Of a stretch of DNA of 38,517 nucleotides, positions 182-38,517 are shown piece after piece. The notes below the pieces were generated by a model. The model did no database searches and was not told where the DNA came from. It was given only the letters and a program-made list of their open reading frames with translations. The position numbers were made by a program, and so were the translations under genes. Numbering within the stretch: position 1 is the stretch's first letter; every line of letters begins with the position of its first letter. This DNA is from Candidatus Prevotella equi (GTDB taxonomy: Bacteria > Bacteroidota > Bacteroidia > Bacteroidales > Bacteroidaceae), in the NCBI GenBank assembly GCA_018065145.1, contig JAGHTW010000155.1, forward strand, positions 1-38,517. Reading direction: 5' to 3'.

Positions 182-472
182 GTGAGGACTAGATATAAAA
201 AATATACTGACTACGGATTGACACAAGATGAAGTACGAGAGACATATGACTGGTTAAATACGCTTGCTGGAAGCGATTTAGAGATAGTTAAAGATATCAT
301 GGTGAACGAATTACCACCAAGCATCGGAGAGTACGTATTTATGGCCTTAACGCAGCGTAAAGGGTATTACAAACTGTACCACTTAGGTCTTGACTACTGC
401 AAAAGCGATTTCTACGGGTACAAGCGCAAAGGATTGTCTATAGCAAACACCTATATGAAAGGCGCTGAATAA
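182..472 (+). CDS. Hypothetical phage protein
   Basis: 96-aa ORF, GTG start after a gaggtg RBS-like sequence, followed by a terminator. Confidence 0.7.
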   Translation: MRTRYKKYTDYGLTQDEVRETYDWLNTLAGSDLEIVKDIMVNELPPSIGEYVFMALTQRKGYYKLYHLGLDYCKSDFYGYKRKGLSIANTYMKGAE

Positions 473-1170: not shown

Positions 1171-1350
1171 ATGGCAAAGGTTTACAGAAAACGCATTGAG
1201 ATCTGTTTGAACGAGAGGGAGTACAAATTTCTTGAATGGCTGGCAGATAGAGACGACGAAACATTCCAGCAAGAGCTGCAGCAGTTGTTCTATCTGCAGT
1301 TGCGTGAGGAAATGGATCTGTATGAGGATGAGATGAAGGAAGGTTTGTAA
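1171..1350 (+). CDS. Hypothetical 59-aa protein
   Basis: ATG 1171 after gggagggtt; overlaps the next ORF by one base. Confidence 0.65.
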   Translation: MAKVYRKRIEICLNEREYKFLEWLADRDDETFQQELQQLFYLQLREEMDLYEDEMKEGL

Positions 1351-1535
1351 TGGGGGCAAAGTACACAGATGCGCAGCACGCGGCAACAAACGCGTACAGA
1401 AGCGCCAGAGCACAGATCACTATATCTGTGACAAAGGAAGAAAAAGAGCTTATAGATCAGAATGCGAGGGATGCAGGAAAGAGTGTAAAGCAGTATCTCG
1501 TTGATCTGGCAAAAGCAGATGTGGAGCACGTGTAG
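1350..1535 (+). CDS. Ribbon-helix-helix / Arc-like small DNA-binding protein
   Basis: ARAQITISVTKEEKELIDQNARDAGKSVKQYLVDLAKA has an RHH-like pattern. Confidence 0.6.
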   Translation: MGAKYTDAQHAATNAYRSARAQITISVTKEEKELIDQNARDAGKSVKQYLVDLAKADVEHV

Positions 1536-1560: not shown

Positions 1561-1599
1561 AAAGGTGCGTACTTTTTGGATTTTTAACTGTTCTATAAT
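1561..1599 (+). promoter_or_regulatory. Putative phage promoter, copy 1 (25-bp box + 8 nt + TATAAT)
   Basis: AAAGGTGCGTACTTTTTGGATTTTT-aactgttc-TATAAT; 24/25 identical to 12008-12032 with the same spacing to a -10 box. Confidence 0.7.
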
Positions 1600-1632: not shown

Positions 1633-2670
1633 ATGCAGATTATCGAGAAAAAGCTAACAGATATTATACCATATGAGAAAAATCCGAGAAAAAATGATGC
1701 TGCTGTGCAGTACGTTGCAAACAGCATTAAGCAGTTCGGATTTAAAGTACCTATAGTGATTGATAAAAACGGCGTGATTGTTGCAGGACATACGCGCCAT
1801 AAAGCCGCAAATAAGCTTGGAATGGAAACAGTGCCATGCATTATAGCGGACGATTTATCAGAAGAACAAATAAAGGCTTTTAGAATCGCTGACAACAAAG
1901 TATCAGAGCAGGCAGAGTGGGATGAAGCTTTATTGATGGACGAAATTGAGGATCTGATTGAGTTTGATATGACTGATTACGGATTCGATTTTGTTGACAT
2001 TTTTGATATTGAGGAAGAGCACAAGAAAAACGCTGACGATACACAAAACAGGGTTGAAAACATAGAAAACCTTGCACTCGGTCAATTTGATGGCGAGGGT
2101 TATTACGATATTCCAAAGCTAAAACCAGTTTATGAGCTTCCAGAAATAAAGGAATGGATAGGTTTTAACTATGTATTGTCAGACGAAGATCCAACTGGAA
2201 AAGGTGTGCATTTCTTTATAGATGATTACCAGTTTGAACGTATATGGTCAAATCCTGAAAAATACGTTGAAAAACTCAAACAGTACGCTGCAGTTGCTAC
2301 ACCAGACTTTTCCCCGTATGGAGATATGCCAAACGCGCTGCAGATCTACAATCATTACCGAAAACACTGGGTAGGCGCTTTTTTACAAGAGCGTGGGGTT
2401 AAAGTAATCCCCACTATCCGCTGCAGTTCAGACAGAAGAAGCCTTGACTGGTATTTAGACGGAGAACCGCATGGCGGAATAGTAATAATTAGCTCCATGT
2501 GGGTAAATGATGAAAAGAAAGACAGGGTACTGGAAGAATACACAAAGATGTATGAGACATTAAAGCCTGCAAAGGTAATTATTTACGGCAAAAAAGTAGA
2601 CTGGCTGTATGGCAATGTTGAGTATATACCAAACTTTACGCAAAAAAGGTGGGGCGAAAACAATGGATAA
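1633..2670 (+). CDS. ParB/Srx N-terminal domain protein with a C-terminal DUF4417-like region
   Basis: N-term DIIPYEKNPRKNDAAVQYVANSIKQFGFKVPIVIDKNGVIVAGHTRHKAA is ParB-like; C-terminal half is a separate domain. Confidence 0.75.
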   Translation: MQIIEKKLTDIIPYEKNPRKNDAAVQYVANSIKQFGFKVPIVIDKNGVIVAGHTRHKAANKLGMETVPCIIADDLSEEQIKAFRIADNKVSEQAEWDEALLMDEIEDLIEFDMTDYGFDFVDIFDIEEEHKKNADDTQNRVENIENLALGQFDGEGYYDIPKLKPVYELPEIKEWIGFNYVLSDEDPTGKGVHFFIDDYQFERIWSNPEKYVEKLKQYAAVATPDFSPYGDMPNALQIYNHYRKHWVGAFLQERGVKVIPTIRCSSDRRSLDWYLDGEPHGGIVIISSMWVNDEKKDRVLEEYTKMYETLKPAKVIIYGKKVDWLYGNVEYIPNFTQKRWGENNG

Positions 2671-3040
2671 GGAAACACGCGGCGGCAGAAGAGTTAGAAA
2701 AAGAAAAAATGAGATTGTAAGAGCAATAATAACACTTGACAGTGGACATGTGATTGAATACGAAATCAAAAATGGATCAATTTACAGAGTTGATGGTTTA
2801 GAGATTGAAGAGGTTGAAACTACACTAAGCATTGATCAGATATTGCAAAATGCAAGATCAATGGGAAGTACAGTTGAAACATTTAACGCAAAGCAAGATA
2901 AGGAACTTCAAGAAAAAAGAAAGAAAGACCGTGAAGAAACTAATGAGTTTTTAAATGCGCACGATGTACAGAATAAAACAATGAAGCGCGGCACAAAAAT
3001 GAACAAAATCGCAAACAGACGAAGAAATAGGAGGCGATAA
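2663..3040 (+). CDS. Hypothetical basic phage protein
   Basis: Start at ATG 2663 (MDKETRGGRRVRKRK...), overlapping the upstream stop; C-term KMNKIANRRRNRRR. Confidence 0.6.
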   Translation: MDKETRGGRRVRKRKNEIVRAIITLDSGHVIEYEIKNGSIYRVDGLEIEEVETTLSIDQILQNARSMGSTVETFNAKQDKELQEKRKKDREETNEFLNAHDVQNKTMKRGTKMNKIANRRRNRRR

Positions 3041-3042
3041 TC

Positions 3043-3711
3043 GTGGATAAAGATAAAAGAAAAGGCAAGAGAAAACTTAAGAACTCACAGGGCGAAGACG
3101 TAAAGATCAGAAAAGAACAGGATGTCTGGTCTGAAAGACATAATCCGAGCCAAGAAGCAGCGGTTGATCAGATCCTGACTGGTACGCGTGACATGAACGA
3201 CGAATACGGAATAATGGATAATGTTGACACTGTAAGTATTGCAGATATGGATAAAATCAATGTAATTGCATTTTACGACAACGAAGCAAACAAAATGGTA
3301 GTAAACAGAGCATTTACAGACATTGACGGAATTGAAGCTGCATACGCAGATTGCGTGGAAAAAGGATACCATCCTGCGCTTGGAGACAAGAGCGCTCTCT
3401 CTGCAGTTACGGCGCACGAGCTGGGGCATGCACTTGCTGACAAGATCAACGAAGCAAGAATGGCAAAAGGCGGCGGTGCAGAGGCAAATGAGCAGATCGT
3501 AAGAGATGCCTTCAATTCAATGGGAAGAAAAGATAAGTCACAGAGGGCACTGGATAAGGCGCGCGCTGGTATTAGTGGTTATGCAACAGAAAACTATCAC
3601 GAAACAGTCGCCGAATCAGTTGCTGACGTATACTGCAATGGCAAAAAAGCAAACAAATTTAGTCAGGCAGTAGTTAAGAGATTAAAAGAAGTAATGCAGG
3701 CCGAGTTATAA
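3043..3711 (+). CDS. Putative zinc metallopeptidase (HExxH)
   Basis: AVTAHELGHALADKINEAR plus downstream YATENYHETVAESVADVY. Confidence 0.6.
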   Translation: MDKDKRKGKRKLKNSQGEDVKIRKEQDVWSERHNPSQEAAVDQILTGTRDMNDEYGIMDNVDTVSIADMDKINVIAFYDNEANKMVVNRAFTDIDGIEAAYADCVEKGYHPALGDKSALSAVTAHELGHALADKINEARMAKGGGAEANEQIVRDAFNSMGRKDKSQRALDKARAGISGYATENYHETVAESVADVYCNGKKANKFSQAVVKRLKEVMQAEL

Positions 3712-3732
3712 AAAATAAAGGAGGACAAAAAA

Positions 3733-3873
3733 ATGGCAACAAAGAACACAGGAAGCAAGTCTAAGGGCGGATACGTAGAACCGACAAGTTATTTCTCAAA
3801 GGATCAGAGAAAGAAATATGGCCTCGGTGAATACGCAAAGAAAACCACAACAAAGAAAAGCGGCAAAAAATAA
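3733..3873 (+). CDS. Small basic phage protein, 46 aa
   Basis: MATKNTGSKSKGGYVEPTSYFSKDQRKKYGLGEYAKKTTTKKSGKK*, RBS aaaggagg. Confidence 0.6.
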   Translation: MATKNTGSKSKGGYVEPTSYFSKDQRKKYGLGEYAKKTTTKKSGKK

Positions 3874-3885
3874 GGTGGTGATATA

Positions 3886-5469
3886 TTGGCAAACGAAGCG
3901 AATTTGATACCACAGGCGCATAAAATAACCGTAGAAGAGGCGTCGAAAGGCGGCAAAGCTTCGGTTGAAGCGCGCAGAAAGAAAAAAACAATGTCAGCGC
4001 TTGCCAGTATGATGATCAATGCAAGCCTAGAAGGAAAAGCAAAAGAATCAATACGGGATCAGTACGGAATAGCAGACGATGATATAACAGTCGCGTCTGC
4101 TATGATGGCTGGACAGATTAAGGCGGCCATGAAGGGCGATTCAAGGGCTTTTGGAATTATTGGCGCACTTGCACAGCAGGAAGAAGAGAAGAAAGCCAGA
4201 GAAGAGGCTGCGCAGGCTGCATTGTTAAAAAAGACATATCACATGGATTTAGACATGATTCCTGACAATTTCCATGCGCTTATACGTGATATAAGAGGGA
4301 AAAAACATCAGGAATATGTGTTTGAGGGTGGGCGTGGTAGCACTAAGTCATCAGACATATCACAGATAATTATTGAACTGATGCGGAATTATCACGACAT
4401 TCATTGTGTAGTTGTTCGTAAGGTGGGAAACACGCTGAAAGACTCAGTGTATTCTAAGCTAAAATGGGCGATAGGAATGCAGAATTTCACAGAGGAATTT
4501 GACGCGCATAAATCTCCTTTGGAAATTACTCTAAAGGCAACAGGCCAGAAAATATACTTCAGAGGCGCAGACGAACCAGAAAAGATAAAATCAATTTCAC
4601 CTGAATTTGGCTATATTGCAATTATATGGTTCGAAGAATTGGATCAGTTTAACGGGGAAGAGGAAGTGCGAAATATTACGCAGTCAGCTATTCGAGGTGG
4701 CGAACTTGCGTGGATATTTAAGTCATTTAATCCGCCAAAAACTGCAAACAACTGGGCGAATAGGTATGTGCAGATACCAAAAGCAAACATGGTTGTGCAT
4801 CATTCGACATATCTGGAAGTCCCTCCTGAATGGCTGGGCAAGCCTTTTATCGAAGAAGCAGAACACCTTAAAGAGGTAAATCCAGAGGCATATGAGCACG
4901 AATATTTAGGCATACCAAACGGAAACGGCGGAAACGTATTTGAATATCTGGAGATCAGAGAAATTACGGACGATGAAATAAAAGGCTTTGATAGAATTTA
5001 TCAAGGCCAAGACTGGGGATGGTTTCCTGATCCTGCAGCTTTTATCAGGTTGGCATACATGCCAGCGCAGGACATGATAGTTTTGATAGACGAGCATTAC
5101 GTAAACAAGACGCCGAACAAAGAAAACGCCGAGTGGATTTTGCAGCAGGGGTACAATGACTATGATATCATATGCGACTCTGCAGAAAAGAAATCTGTAA
5201 ACGACTATAGAGATTTAGGACTGCCTGCAAAAGCGGCCATAAAAGGCGCAGGAAGCGTTGAATATGGCATGAAATGGCTTCAGGGCAGGAGAATTGTTAT
5301 TGATCCGAACAGGACGCCGCATGCATATCAAGAGTTTACGCAGTATGAGTATGAACGCGACAAAGAAGGTAATCCTATAAGCGGTTATCCAGACGCAAAC
5401 AATCATTTGATAGATGCCACAAGATATGCTCTTGAAAGATTCTGCAACAAGAGAGGAAATATTGCATAA
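3886..5469 (+). CDS. Terminase large subunit with N-terminal small-subunit-like extension
   Basis: Walker A-like FEGGRGSTKSSDIS, IIWFEELDQF acidic motif, C-terminal nuclease-like YDIICDSAEKKS; N-terminal KGGKASVEARRKKK region. TTG start with aaggtggtg RBS. Confidence 0.9.
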   Translation: MANEANLIPQAHKITVEEASKGGKASVEARRKKKTMSALASMMINASLEGKAKESIRDQYGIADDDITVASAMMAGQIKAAMKGDSRAFGIIGALAQQEEEKKAREEAAQAALLKKTYHMDLDMIPDNFHALIRDIRGKKHQEYVFEGGRGSTKSSDISQIIIELMRNYHDIHCVVVRKVGNTLKDSVYSKLKWAIGMQNFTEEFDAHKSPLEITLKATGQKIYFRGADEPEKIKSISPEFGYIAIIWFEELDQFNGEEEVRNITQSAIRGGELAWIFKSFNPPKTANNWANRYVQIPKANMVVHHSTYLEVPPEWLGKPFIEEAEHLKEVNPEAYEHEYLGIPNGNGGNVFEYLEIREITDDEIKGFDRIYQGQDWGWFPDPAAFIRLAYMPAQDMIVLIDEHYVNKTPNKENAEWILQQGYNDYDIICDSAEKKSVNDYRDLGLPAKAAIKGAGSVEYGMKWLQGRRIVIDPNRTPHAYQEFTQYEYERDKEGNPISGYPDANNHLIDATRYALERFCNKRGNIA

Positions 5470-8813: not shown

Positions 8814-9173
8814 TTGTATGTAAATTTCAATCCAAACCCTGCACTCAATAAAGTGGGTGATTGTGTAATCAGGGCGTTATGCAAAGCACTGTCGAAACCG
8901 TGGGACGAGGTTTTCTGTGAATTGTGCGCCTATGGGTACAGCGCAAAAGACATGCCGTCAGCTAACCATGTATGGGGCAAATATCTGTCTGATAAGGGCT
9001 TTAAACGCCGCATAATTGATTGCGATTGCACAGTTGATGAATTTTGCGACAAGCACAAAGAAGGGCTTTATATACTTGCTATACAAGGCCATGTGGTGTG
9101 CTGCGTAAATGGTTGCTACTATGACTCATGGGATTCTGGGAAAGAAATTCCTTTGTATTACTGGGAGAGATAA
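8814..9173 (+). CDS. Cysteine-peptidase-like small protein
   Basis: TTG start after AAAGGAGG; GDCVIRAL Cys, HVVCCVNGCYYDSWDSG His/Asp arrangement. Confidence 0.55.
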   Translation: MYVNFNPNPALNKVGDCVIRALCKALSKPWDEVFCELCAYGYSAKDMPSANHVWGKYLSDKGFKRRIIDCDCTVDEFCDKHKEGLYILAIQGHVVCCVNGCYYDSWDSGKEIPLYYWER

Positions 9174-9176
9174 AAA

Positions 9177-9377
9177 ATGAAAATCTGTGAATACACCATG
9201 CCAGAGATCAGATACCTGCTGGCAGAGGCAAATTTCACAGAAGATGAGCGCACACTGTTTGAAATGCGGTGTGTGAATGTACCACTGGAAGAATGCGCAG
9301 AGCGAATGAATGTAAGCAACTCAACAGTAAACAGGTTGAGCAAGCGCGTAAAAAATAAAATTGATAAAATTATGTGA
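9177..9377 (+). CDS. Sigma-70 region 4-like HTH protein
   Basis: LTEDERTLFEMRCVNVPLEECAERMNVSNSTVNRLSKRVKNKI-like pattern (actual FTEDERTLFEMRC...), 66 aa. Confidence 0.65.
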   Translation: MKICEYTMPEIRYLLAEANFTEDERTLFEMRCVNVPLEECAERMNVSNSTVNRLSKRVKNKIDKIM

Positions 9378-9914: not shown

Positions 9915-10119
9915 TCCTTTGTACAATTCACTGGCTGGAAGCATGCCACAAAATAACAACATGATGCAGATGATACAGCAATTTCAGCAATTTAAGCAGA
10001 ACCTGCAAGGAGATCCAAAGCAAATTGTGATGAATATGTTATCAAATGGCCAGATCTCACAGGCACAGCTTAATCAGGCGCAGCAGATGGCAAACCAGTT
10101 GCGCGGCATTCTCAAATAG
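9907..10119 (+). CDS. Small Gln/Met/Asn-rich phage protein
   Basis: 70-aa ORF overlapping the upstream stop. Confidence 0.7.
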   Translation: MSNPLYNSLAGSMPQNNNMMQMIQQFQQFKQNLQGDPKQIVMNMLSNGQISQAQLNQAQQMANQLRGILK

Positions 10120-10170
10120 TATGTAAGGTGCACACTTATATAAATATCATAATCGAAGGAGATTATTACA

Positions 10171-11010
10171 ATGACAGACGGATTATCAGCAAGTGATGTT
10201 GCTCTGATTCAGGGCAATGGAAGAAGCGGCATGGGTGGCTTTGGTGACGGCGAAGGCTGGTGGGTAATCATTCTCTTTGCACTCATTTTCGGATGGGGCA
10301 GAGGCGGCTGGGGCGGCAACGACTGCGGCAGCAATGGCGGCACATACCTTGGCGAGAATTACGCACTTATCACAGACAATGCAACACTGGAGCGCAAGAT
10401 TGATGGAGTATATGCAGGCATTTGTGACAGCACATTTGCACTGAACAATACCATCAACAACGGTTTTGCGTCAGCACAGAACACAATGACGCAGGGATTT
10501 GCAGGCCTTAACACTGCACTGGTAACACAGGGCTATGAGACAAGAAATGCAGTTACTCAGGATACTATCGGTAACATGCAGAACACAAACCTGCTTCAGG
10601 GTGCTATCAAAGATTGCTGCTGCCAGACTCAGCAGAACCTTGCAGACGTTAAGTATACTATCGGATCTACTGGCGCAGGCATTCAGTCACAGATCCAGCA
10701 GTGCTGCTGCGATGTATCAAGACAGATCGAAAGAGGATTTGCTGATACAAATTACGCAATGGCTACACAGAATTGCGCGACTCTGCAGGCAATTGATAAG
10801 GTTGGCGACAGAATACTTGAAAGACTCACTCAGGACAAGCTTGACGCATTGCGCGATGAAAATGCATCTTTGCGTTTGACTGCTTCACAGACTGCACAGA
10901 ATCAGTATTTGATCAACCAGCTCAAACCTTTGCCCGTTCCCAGCTTCAATGTTCCGAACCCTTGGGGATGTAACTGCAACTGCAATTACGGCGGCACTAC
11001 AATCGCATAG
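10171..11010 (+). CDS. Phage protein with Gly/Trp-rich hydrophobic N-terminus and CCC motifs
   Basis: GWWVIILFALIFGWGRGGWGG; DCCCQTQ, QCCCDVS, GCNCNCNYGG; RBS gaaggag. Confidence 0.75.
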   Translation: MTDGLSASDVALIQGNGRSGMGGFGDGEGWWVIILFALIFGWGRGGWGGNDCGSNGGTYLGENYALITDNATLERKIDGVYAGICDSTFALNNTINNGFASAQNTMTQGFAGLNTALVTQGYETRNAVTQDTIGNMQNTNLLQGAIKDCCCQTQQNLADVKYTIGSTGAGIQSQIQQCCCDVSRQIERGFADTNYAMATQNCATLQAIDKVGDRILERLTQDKLDALRDENASLRLTASQTAQNQYLINQLKPLPVPSFNVPNPWGCNCNCNYGGTTIA

Positions 11011-11974: not shown

Positions 11975-12002
11975 AGGGGCAGTGTAAAAACTGCCCTTTT
12001 TT
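11975..12002 (+). terminator. Rho-independent terminator
   Basis: AGGGGCAG-tgtaaaaa-CTGCCCTTTTTT. Confidence 0.85.
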
Positions 12003-12007
12003 GCGTT

Positions 12008-12046
12008 AAAGGTGCATACTTTTTGGATTTTTGCTTGATGTAAAAT
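12008..12046 (+). promoter_or_regulatory. Putative phage promoter, copy 2 (25-bp box + 8 nt + TAAAAT)
   Basis: AAAGGTGCATACTTTTTGGATTTTT-gcttgatg-TAAAAT; matches copy 1 at 1561. Confidence 0.7.
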
Positions 12047-12128: not shown

Positions 12129-12207
12129 CGCAGTTTAGTTTAGGCTGGTTAAGAGCGCTGTAATCAAAAGATATGCAGAGACGCATGTTCAAATCATGCA
12201 ACTGCGC
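12129..12207 (+). ncRNA. tRNA-like cloverleaf in the leader of the scaffold/capsid genes
   Basis: Acceptor CGCAGTT/AACTGCG (7 bp), D-arm GTTT-AGGCTGGTTAA-GAGC, anticodon stem CTGTA/TGCAG with 11-nt loop ATCAAAAGATA, T-arm GCATG-TTCAAAT-CATGC (5 bp, TTCAAAT loop). No encoded CCA. Confidence 0.55.
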
Positions 12208-12295
12208 TTTGGCAGATATGCCTTAAATATCAAATCATAAACAATTCATGGTGGACGCGGTTACACACCTAAAACAACCTAAAATGGAGGAAATT

Positions 12296-12892
12296 ATGAA
12301 AACAGACGAACTGAAAGAAAAAGGACTCACAGAGGAACAGATTGCATTTGTAATGGCAGAAAACGGCAAGGATATCGGAAAAGTGCAGAAAAAGCTTGAC
12401 GATATGACTGCTGAAAGAGACAAGGAAGCAACCAGAGCAACGACTGCAGAGGAAACTTTGAAGAAGTTTGAGGGTGTGGACGTTGAGGCCATTAAAAAAG
12501 ATCTTGCAGACTGGAAGACAAAGGCAGAAAAGGCCGAAAGCGATTATGCAGCTAAGATTGCAGAGAGAGACTTTGACGACATGATCAAAGATGCAATTTC
12601 CAGTGCAAACGGACTTAATGCAAAGGCAATCAAAGCACTTTTGGATACAGATGCGCTGAAGGCATCCAAGAACCAGAAGGAAGATGTAGCAGCGGCAATT
12701 AAAGCCCTGAGCGAAGCTGAAGACAGTAAAATGTTGTTTAAGCAGCCTGAGGCAAAAGCGCCTGCGAAATTCACATCTACCAGCACAGGAAGTGCAACAG
12801 GTGGAAATGTAACAAAGGAATCTATTATGGCTATTAAGGATCGCGGTGAGAGACTTCAGGCAATCTCACAGCATAAAGATCTTTTCCAGTAA
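12296..12892 (+). CDS. Scaffold protein (Phage minor structural GP20-like)
   Basis: Coiled-coil protein immediately before MCP; ATG 12296 with atggagga RBS. Confidence 0.8.
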   Translation: MKTDELKEKGLTEEQIAFVMAENGKDIGKVQKKLDDMTAERDKEATRATTAEETLKKFEGVDVEAIKKDLADWKTKAEKAESDYAAKIAERDFDDMIKDAISSANGLNAKAIKALLDTDALKASKNQKEDVAAAIKALSEAEDSKMLFKQPEAKAPAKFTSTSTGSATGGNVTKESIMAIKDRGERLQAISQHKDLFQ

Positions 12893-12964
12893 TGATTTCA
12901 CACCGACCATGCAGCATCACGAGTATGGCCGCTAACCAAAAACAAATATTGGAGGATAAAAACT

Positions 12965-13858
12965 ATGGCAAATGAAGTTTTAAAGACAGCAGAAAACAAC
13001 CTTATCAAAAATGCCGATCTTGCAACCGTAAGACAGATTGATTTTGTATCAAGATTCGGATATTCAACCAAGAAACTCATGGAGCTTCTGGGTGTAACCA
13101 GAATGATCCCCAAGCAGGCAGGCACTGTACTTAAGAGACATACCGTAACTGGTTCTCTTGTAAGTGGCGCAGTTGCAGAGGGTGATATCATTCCTCTTTC
13201 AAAGTACAGCACCGCTGATGTTCCTATTGGTGAAATCACCCTGAACAAGTGGCGCAAGGCTACATCTGCAGAGGCAATTCTTGACAAGGGATTCGATCAG
13301 GCAGTAGGCGAGACCACTGACAAGATGCTTCAGGATATCCAGAATGGAATTAAGGCAGATCTTATTTCCTCACTTACCATCTCTGGCCAGCCTACAGCAA
13401 CTGGTGAAGGTACTCAGGCAGCACTTGCAAACGCATGGGGCAAGCTTGCAAATATCTTTGAGAATGATTCAGTAGAACTTGTATTCTTTATGAATCCTCT
13501 TGATATCGCTGATTATCTTGGCAAGGCAGCAATCACTGTACAGAATGCATTCGGATTCCAGTACGTTGAGAACTTCCTCGGCCTTGGCACTGTTGTTATG
13601 AACAGCGCAATTACTGCTGGTACTTTCTTTGCAACTGCAAAGGAAAACATTGTTGCTTACTATGTTCCTGCAAATGAGAGCGATCTTGCAAAGGCATTTG
13701 ACTTCACATCTGATGAGACTGGCCTTATTGCTATCCATGAGTATGCAGACTACGACAGACTGACTGCAGATGATACCGTTCTTTCTGGTATCAAGGTATT
13801 TGCAGACATGACTGCAGGCGTTATCAAGGGTACAATCACTGCTCCTCTGGGGGAATAG
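12965..13858 (+). CDS. Major capsid protein
   Basis: 297 aa after scaffold; sequence and position typical of HK97-fold MCPs; RBS ggaggataaaaact. Confidence 0.85.
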   Translation: MANEVLKTAENNLIKNADLATVRQIDFVSRFGYSTKKLMELLGVTRMIPKQAGTVLKRHTVTGSLVSGAVAEGDIIPLSKYSTADVPIGEITLNKWRKATSAEAILDKGFDQAVGETTDKMLQDIQNGIKADLISSLTISGQPTATGEGTQAALANAWGKLANIFENDSVELVFFMNPLDIADYLGKAAITVQNAFGFQYVENFLGLGTVVMNSAITAGTFFATAKENIVAYYVPANESDLAKAFDFTSDETGLIAIHEYADYDRLTADDTVLSGIKVFADMTAGVIKGTITAPLGE

Positions 13859-27533: not shown

Positions 27534-27566
27534 GGGGAGGCATAAAAAGCCTCCCCACTTTGTTTT
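27534..27566 (+). terminator. Terminator after the lysis module
   Basis: GGGGAGGC-ataaaaa-GCCTCCCC then actttgtttt. Confidence 0.8.
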
Positions 27567-27656
27567 GTACTAAAATAACATTCGCATTGGCAAATGTATA
27601 AATAGTACAAATATGTACTAAAATAACATAACCACTGGTCTATGTATGGTTAGTAC
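27567..27656. repeat. Two tandem attP-like imperfect palindromes (27567-27608 and 27615-27656)
   Basis: GTACTAAAATAACAT-N12-ATGTATAAATAGTAC and GTACTAAAATAACAT-N12-ATGTATGGTTAGTAC, 48-bp period, abutting the recombinase stop codon. Confidence 0.75.
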
Positions 27657-27660
27657 AAAA

Positions 27661-28989
27661 TTAGACAAATTTAATTCCATCAATCTCGCCGCTGGCATTT
27701 ACGTCGATTTCCCTTACAATGTTCTGCCAGAATAGTTTTCTGTTTTCTTTTGTAAGCTCATCGTATATCTCTTTCCAGTTTCCAAACACAACACTGGTAG
27801 CTGCAACTTTTCTTTCCACAAGCTGATCAGACAGAGAAGCAATTTCTTTTTGAATTGCTCTGATCTTTTTGTCGTATTCGTCAATGTCAAGTCTTCCCAT
27901 TTCATACAGGTGATCCAGACGTTTCATTGCTTGCTCCAGATCCTCTATGCTTTTAGTTTTCTTTTTCTTTTCGCTGGTTGTTAATGAAGATATTTTCGCT
28001 GTGTAGGAATCCAGATACAGCCTGATGTTGCTGATCATTGTTTCCTCCAGATACTGTTCACCAACTGCAAAATGTTTGTGGAGTCCCTTTGTGCCACTAG
28101 GGCAGCGGTAATAAATATACGTCTTGCCTCGCATGGTGTTTTTGTTTGCAGCAAGCCTAGATCCGCAAATAGGGCACTTGATCATGCCAGTATACAGATA
28201 ATGTAGTCCAGACGGCGCAGCCTTTATGCAGTTTAAGGATCTCACCCTCTGCATGTATTCTTCAGTGAAATATGGTTCACAAAAGCTGTCGTTTTCTCTG
28301 ACGCGGCCTATGTATAAATCAGAGTTGATCATTGCCTGCAGCATTCTGAGAGTAAAATCAGGATCGTAAGTTTCCCTTACCCATTTTGCAGTGCCATTTT
28401 TGTTTTTGCTAAGTAGGAGATGCTCAAAGATTGCGCGCGTTTCCTCTTCCTTGTCGTGGACAATTCTTTTGTATCCATCAATCTTTTCGATTTTGAATCC
28501 AAAGCGCGGCAGTTTCCCAGTGTAGGCCAGTCCGTGAGATATTTTGAAGCGGTGCATATCTTTGTATCGCTCAGATGTGAGCGCCCATTCAAGCTCCGCC
28601 ATTGCGGCCATTTGATACATAAAATTCCTGCCGTATGGTGTTGATGTATCAATCTGCTGACTGACAGAGACAAGACTGCTGCCAGATTCCTCGATATCGT
28701 GGAATATATTGCAAAAGTCCCTCATATTACGCGCTATTCTGTCATAACGCATAATTACAACCAGATCAATCTTGTGTAACTTCACATCATTCATCATGCG
28801 CAGGAAATCTTTTCTATATTTCATAGAATGGCCTGTGAATCCATAATCTGCATCATAGAGTGTAAGCTCATAATTCCCTGCGCCATATTTTCCATCCAGA
28901 TATGAAGTGCAGTTATAAACCTGCGCCTCCATACTGTCTGAGTCTTTTTTCTCTTTCGATTTTCTAGGATAAATCGCTGCTCTTATCAT
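27661..28989 (-). CDS. Serine recombinase (integrase)
   Basis: MIRAAIYPRKSKEKKDSDSMEAQ... resolvase catalytic domain, Zn-ribbon CPICGSRL, coiled coil; start at 28989 is the likely one. Confidence 0.9.
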   Translation of the reverse strand: MIRAAIYPRKSKEKKDSDSMEAQVYNCTSYLDGKYGAGNYELTLYDADYGFTGHSMKYRKDFLRMMNDVKLHKIDLVVIMRYDRIARNMRDFCNIFHDIEESGSSLVSVSQQIDTSTPYGRNFMYQMAAMAELEWALTSERYKDMHRFKISHGLAYTGKLPRFGFKIEKIDGYKRIVHDKEEETRAIFEHLLLSKNKNGTAKWVRETYDPDFTLRMLQAMINSDLYIGRVRENDSFCEPYFTEEYMQRVRSLNCIKAAPSGLHYLYTGMIKCPICGSRLAANKNTMRGKTYIYYRCPSGTKGLHKHFAVGEQYLEETMISNIRLYLDSYTAKISSLTTSEKKKKTKSIEDLEQAMKRLDHLYEMGRLDIDEYDKKIRAIQKEIASLSDQLVERKVAATSVVFGNWKEIYDELTKENRKLFWQNIVREIDVNASGEIDGIKFV

Positions 28990-29204
28990 CTTTTCACTTC
29001 CCAAGATCTTCCGCAATCGTTGCATGTAGCAGTAGTAATCATTATAACTTTTTCTTTTCTACGGCGTACAAGCATCCACAAAAGCCAGAGGCCTCCAGTA
29101 ATACAGATCATAAAAAGATTCCACAAAAAGGATCTTCTCACGCTCTTTACAACAGCACTGGTTGTACAGTTTACATTCTCACTTCCACATTTTACACATT
29201 TCAT
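28986..29204 (-). CDS. Zinc-ribbon plus transmembrane small protein
   Basis: CVKCGS...FLWNLFMICITGGLWLLWMLV...CNDCGRSW; 4-bp overlap with recombinase start. Confidence 0.65.
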   Translation of the reverse strand: MKCVKCGSENVNCTTSAVVKSVRRSFLWNLFMICITGGLWLLWMLVRRRKEKVIMITTATCNDCGRSWEVKR

Positions 29205-36242: not shown

Positions 36243-36467
36243 TTGCGTGTACTTGATACGAAAGCTACGGGAGCAAACTTAAGAAATATGCTCAAAGAAC
36301 GAAACATACCAGTAAAAGATCTTGCGGCATACATGAACATGGAAAACCTAGTAAGTGCATATTGTTGGTTTAGGGGCGATCACATGCCGACAATAGACAA
36401 CCTAGTAATTATGACAGAGTTTTTTGACTGCAAACTGGATGACATTGTAAGAACAAAAGAGGTGTGA
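36243..36467 (+). CDS. HTH XRE-like protein
   Basis: LRNMLKERNIPVKDLAAYMNMENLVSAYCWFRGDHMPTIDNLVIMTEFFDCKLDDIV; TTG start after gggagg. Confidence 0.6.
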   Translation: MRVLDTKATGANLRNMLKERNIPVKDLAAYMNMENLVSAYCWFRGDHMPTIDNLVIMTEFFDCKLDDIVRTKEV

Positions 36468-38377: not shown

Positions 38378-38517
38378 ATGGGGTACTGGGAAAATATCTG
38401 TGAGATGCAGAAAAAGCAGACAGAAAAAGGGATCAGGACGTATGGGCAGACGCTTGAACAAAACACAAGCTTAAACGAGACGCAGCGTCTTGAATACTTA
38501 GAGGAAGAGCTTATTGA
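38378..38517 (+). CDS. MazG-like protein, 5' part (continues at 1-165)
   Basis: ATG 38378 after aacgaggagg; same frame as window base 1. Confidence 0.6.
   Translation, partial: MGYWENICEMQKKQTEKGIRTYGQTLEQNTSLNETQRLEYLEEELI
38417..38517. repeat. Terminal direct repeat, exact copy of 1-101
   Basis: 101-bp identity by eye. Confidence 0.95.

Follow-up and report, generated by a model that had tools for sequence, protein, structure and literature searches.

In the sigma appropriation carried out by MotA and AsiA of phage T4, promoter recognition is divided, the box at the -30/-35 position being read by a phage factor and the -10 element by the host sigma factor. PBSX Xpf and other phage sigma-like late factors control late operons via a non-standard -35 region, and Gram-positive phages possess late regulators of the RinA/ArpU/Ltr type, such as phi11 RinA and TP901-1 Alt. 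Ltr of phi13 has a site made up of direct repeats and its gene is required, and the genes of Ltr late regulators are located directly upstream of the late promoter that they activate (PMC13123087). In this study, a 38,517-nucleotide contig assigned to Candidatus Prevotella equi (JAGHTW010000155.1, positions 1 to 38,517; hereafter the window) was analyzed for a bipartite promoter-like element that it carries in two copies. We consider it likely that these copies, P1 and P2, are two late promoters read by the host sigma factor at the -10 element and through a phage-specific box bound by an activator, the 96-amino-acid protein encoded at 182-472, to which the comparisons of related sequences point.

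The window contains exactly two occurrences of AAAGGTGCRTACTTTTTGGATTTTT-N8-TAWAAT, both on the forward strand and just downstream of a terminator. The P1 box (AAAGGTGCGTACTTTTTGGATTTTT, 1561-1585, roughly -45 to -21 relative to the predicted start) is followed by TATAAT at 1594-1599, and the P2 box (AAAGGTGCATACTTTTTGGATTTTT, 12008-12032) is followed by TAAAAT at 12041-12046, which would place the transcription starts at about 1606 and 12053, respectively. The two boxes are identical at 24 of 25 positions and their 8-nt spacers are equal in length and different in sequence, as the original prediction had stated for the elements at 1561-1599 and 12008-12046. The likeness reaches slightly upstream of the box, over 50 nt with 80% identity. 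Shuffled sequences gave an expectation of 0.00 box matches in the window, and a scan of both strands revealed no further site with three or fewer mismatches. The -35 position at a 17-nt spacer reads ACTTTT in both P1 and P2, in agreement with the earlier reading of the first copy; no TTGACA is present at a spacing of 16-18 nt, and a sigma-70 promoter scan of the window listed neither site. Both -10 sequences are near TATAAT, and TANNAT is present in nearly all relatives. The terminator-like hairpins with U-tracts end directly upstream of the elements (1523-1546 and 11975-11998, forward strand), as had been claimed. Because the terminator scan found no more terminators in the window than in shuffled sequences, their support rests on strong stems, U-tracts, and position. 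A weaker third match to the box (AAGGTGCACACTT at 10123) was rejected as a promoter copy, as it sits in the loop of an RNA hairpin before gene 10171 that is conserved as a hairpin in two relatives. Two adjoining RNA hairpins occupy 10117-10170 before this gene, the first with the loop GUGCACA and the second with a Shine-Dalgarno site in its loop, and both are retained in L009 and L074 (L numbers denote related loci) despite sequence change.

A motif search in related phages, suggested along with the original prediction, gave a divided result: the exact motif had no match in the viral collection, because the box sequence varies between phages, but matching pairs with other letters are present in relatives. 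These were found de novo by comparing the non-coding stretches within each genome for repeats, which revealed the same design in different letters, and further pairs were read from the post-terminator and pre-scaffold regions. For example, Dulem virus 35 carries AGGTGTATACAAAAA at 45122, just upstream of the terminase gene, and at 10405, before the scaffold gene, with the -10 sequence at an equal distance in both. A P1/P2 pair is present in 15 distinct phages, namely the window, L009, L012, L014, L018, L050, L054, L115, L117, L118, L121, L125, L152, L153, and L162. The box differs in sequence between phages and is common to both promoters within each phage. The -10 element lies 30-36 nt from the start of the box across phages, and the gap between box and -10 is identical at P1 and P2 of the same phage in 10 of the 15 and 1 nt off in five. 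Since both promoters of a phage carry one box sequence, at distances from the -10 that differ by at most 1 nt, P1 and P2 can be regarded as putative late promoters of a single type, whose box occupies the -35 position and the sequence immediately upstream. These matched pairs lend strong support to the earlier proposal of a phage-specific late promoter class for the packaging/head and scaffold/capsid genes. Two copies of a 50-nt stretch at 80% identity would also fit a recent duplication, a recombination site, or a packaging signal. However, the spacer sequences differ, yet their length and the -10 are conserved, and 14 other phages have such a pair, in different letters, at the two corresponding places, making a non-promoter origin extremely unlikely.

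The pairing also holds against a control. Between the P1 and P2 boxes of one phage, 14-18 of 18 positions match in the window, L012, L018, L117, L118, and L121, as compared with a mean of approximately 11 of 18 when P1 boxes were set against the P2 boxes of other phages. The two boxes match at 16/16 positions in L009 and at 15/16 in L014. A number of further phages did not rise above the cross-phage background in this test, owing to a spacing that is 1 off, to the strict -10 pattern, or to the lack of a detected pair, and L112 is mixed, with P1 and P2 boxes of different types. An initial search for pairs under a strict non-coding filter recovered them in just 6 of 50 sigma-positive loci and was replaced by tests of the P1 and P2 regions; the pair counts obtained afterwards stem from a tuned search, for which the cross-phage box comparison serves as the control, and many relatives are partial contigs. 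In bacterial genomes from the bin family of the window, relaxed motif hits were few, near control counts, and often in a Bacteroidota-like context, and they were set aside. A search of 391 genomes for more prophages yielded one close homologue, for which no pair could be detected, and four distant homologues.

Across these phages, the box tracks the 182-472 protein family. L118 encodes only version a of the protein and carries AACATGTACCACAACTT twice (type-a boxes), L162 encodes only version b and carries AAAAGTGGTNNAGAGG at both promoters (type-b boxes), and L112, which encodes both versions, has a type-b box at P1 and a type-a box at P2. As far as sequence comparison can tell, this natural swap is the clearest evidence that the box tracks the family. 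Since the box sequence varies from phage to phage in step with a phage gene, we infer, with good support, the need for a phage factor that the original prediction had proposed. The same phages bear on the first of the three regulators named there, a sigma-region-4-like protein of 66 amino acids encoded inside the P1 operon (9177-9377, forward strand). As a specificity factor, this protein would read the box as a -35 element, take the place of host sigma region 4, and amplify its own operon together with P2. Profiles (phrog_1190 at 2e-8) and the predicted structure (TM-score of ~0.7 to sigma-E region 4 on -35 DNA, with a Foldseek E > 0.1) agree with sigma region 4, the protein is present in 20 of the 22 box-bearing loci, and the box is located at the -35 position. 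However, the sigma-like proteins of L112, L118, and L162 are near-identical over the 65 amino acids compared yet their boxes differ, so that specificity does not follow the protein. In addition, L117 has both boxes and no sigma-like gene on its partial 8.9-kb contig, the gene is inside the very operon whose start it would drive, and protein distance is uncorrelated with box distance (r = -0.03). A role for this protein in choosing the box is therefore unlikely and its earlier assignment is probably wrong, although it may possibly be an accessory factor.

The 182-472 protein was not on the earlier list, and the comparative evidence suggests that it is probably the best regulator candidate, fitting better than the three proteins that were. 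The original interpretation is thus partly supported, in its promoter class and not in its named regulators. The candidate gene (182-472, forward strand; protein MRTRYKKYTDYG...SDFYGYKRKG) is the last before the early terminator, a terminator-like hairpin directly downstream at 483-507. The family is present in 20 of the 22 box-bearing loci, L117 among them, and a 21st homologue is on the L054 contig; the remaining locus, L047, is a 4.9-kb fragment. In L012, L122, L009, L014, L121, and L126, the homologue is encoded directly upstream of P1. Profile searches assign the family to phrog_11237, of unknown function, and its consensus shows DYG close to the N-terminus and SYD..L....IP..R.DFYGYRRK close to the C-terminus. 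The protein has a calculated pI of 7.75 and its predicted structure is all-helical (pLDDT 92.9), in which the C-terminal helices may form a helix-turn-helix. Longer versions with an additional N-terminal cysteine-rich domain are encoded in L050, L052, L103, L111, L113, and L119.

Several observations weigh against this assignment. L162 has an extra type-a-like box with 1 mismatch and no version-a gene was found on its contig, which slightly weakens the swap evidence. The distance between 182-472 proteins correlates weakly with box distance (r = 0.24, p = 0.049, 13 phages), and a positive correlation was obtained for this protein only. In the window, the gene is separated from P1, downstream of it, by 1.1 kb that hold a small operon and the RHH gene, and the Clostridia locus L185 encodes a homologue with no pair within 7 kb. 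No Pfam or NCBIfam regulator matched the family, its model has no relative among solved structures or folds, and its good matches among viral models are all uncharacterised phage proteins. Finally, L048 is a close relative on whose partial contig no 182-472 homologue is present, and it carries a different shared element at both late promoters (ATAACATGCG / AACGCATGTTAT; L048:9061-9100 and L048:18536-18585), as if the regulator had been swapped out and the two-promoter plan retained. An RHH gene is located at 8585 in L048, near the 9061-9100 element.

This last locus is of interest for the RHH protein of the window (1350-1535), which the original prediction had also named as a regulator. Its gene is immediately upstream of P1, and an RHH gene near P1 in L048, together with a different element at both promoters and no 182-472 homologue on the contig, would be consistent with such a role in the window phage. 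On the other hand, the window box shares geometry and sequence with the box of L009, whose nearest upstream gene is a 182-472 homologue, and the window RHH protein has no homologue in the 22 box-bearing loci. We consider it very unlikely that the RHH protein is the regulator. The third protein named, the HTH protein (36243-36467), likewise has no homologue in these loci, and both assignments are probably wrong. It might also be argued that the box is an operator, by which a repressor would silence both late promoters in the lysogen, the promoters themselves being activator-independent. The box does overlap the -35 region, and the comparative data would suit any phage-encoded DNA-binding protein; nonetheless, we judge a repressor to be quite improbable.

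If the 182-472 protein is the activator, the -10 element would most likely be read by host RNA polymerase with its primary sigma factor. In place of TTGACA, the phage-specific box is centred near -36, and the activator, produced from the last gene of the early region, would bind it at about -45 to -29 and supply the contact that the missing -35 element would give. After induction, the activator may accumulate and turn on P1 and P2 together, P1 for the packaging, portal, and minor head genes and P2 for the scaffold, capsid, tail, and lysis genes. The box common to both promoters would couple packaging and capsid gene expression. More tentatively, these small phage proteins may form a new class of factors, which provide host polymerase with a redefined -35 element and have diversified into many specificities, giving each lineage a private late-promoter pair, with recombinants keeping two regulators for two promoter types. 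If true, a phage protein family so far uncharacterised would gain a function, and sequence alone would suffice to locate the late promoters in Clostridia phages of the gut. Natural activator/promoter pairs of differing specificity would also become available for tests of late activator function and for the construction of orthogonal promoters.

With regard to its origin, the window has a 101-nt terminal repeat (1-101 and 38417-38517), and we therefore regard it as a circular or terminally redundant phage contig. The bin that contains it holds 12 SusD genes, a Bacteroidota marker, whereas the relatives of the window are Clostridia phages (e.g. Blautia phage Montmirail and phages from Oscillospiraceae MAGs, metagenome-assembled genomes) and its genes have strong Shine-Dalgarno sites. 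The contig is probably mis-binned, and probably represents a temperate-type tailed phage of a Clostridia host. Downstream of P1 are ParB/DUF4417, terminase, portal, and minor head genes, the operon starting with the ParB/DUF4417 gene, two more genes, and the gene for the terminase large subunit (1633-5469, forward strand). P2 is followed by a leader with a tRNA-like element (12129-12207, forward strand; tRNA-Phe with anticodon aaa according to ARAGORN) and then by the scaffold and major capsid genes (12248-13858, forward strand; the scaffold start may be 12297). Degenerate tRNA-like sequences are present between P2 and the scaffold gene in L009, L048, and L127, and ordinary tRNA genes are found there in L118, L152, and L162. 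Just upstream of the scaffold gene, GGTGGACGCGGTTACACACCT at 12250-12270 was found again in the distant relatives L009, L110, and L117, and is possibly a conserved leader hairpin. The P2 leaders of L110, L112, L117, L118, and L122 contain a conserved stretch, GTCCTTAnnAGAAA...GAGGTTnAAAAGCGGATGCAATTTCCG, with complementary closing ends that may indicate a structured RNA. Elsewhere, two tandem 48-nt copies (TGTACTAAAATAACAT...) at 27566-27661, beside a likely serine recombinase gene (27661-29025), are a possible attachment site.

When compared with known systems, P1 and P2 have features in common with each of the three described above. As in T4 MotA/AsiA, a box at the -30/-35 position is proposed for a phage factor and the -10 for host sigma, although no relation in sequence or fold was found. 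Phage-encoded late control at a non-standard -35 region is also reminiscent of PBSX Xpf, and the window even encodes a sigma-region-4-like protein; unlike Xpf, however, this protein consists of a lone 66-amino-acid region 4, is encoded within the late operon, and is not tracked by the box. The RinA/ArpU/Ltr regulators are likewise small proteins whose genes close the early region and often immediately precede the promoter that they would control, and this promoter has a good -10 and drives packaging and structural genes. In contrast to these regulators, the 182-472 family has no NCBIfam match, and hence none to the phage RinA/ArpU models if the library includes them; a weak match to phrog_36 came from 1 of 23 members (E = 0.0035). 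The proposed site also differs, with one box per promoter overlapping the -35 region at about -45 to -29, as placed from the nucleotide sequence, versus several direct repeats further upstream, and with two matched promoters versus one. The homology comparison was made with NCBIfam, Pfam, and phrog profiles rather than with an LtrC-type sequence itself. Because no homology to the curated families scanned was found and the site differs, we do not file the 182-472 system as a member of the RinA/ArpU/Ltr group, although it resembles the Ltr regulators by its position and its putative role.
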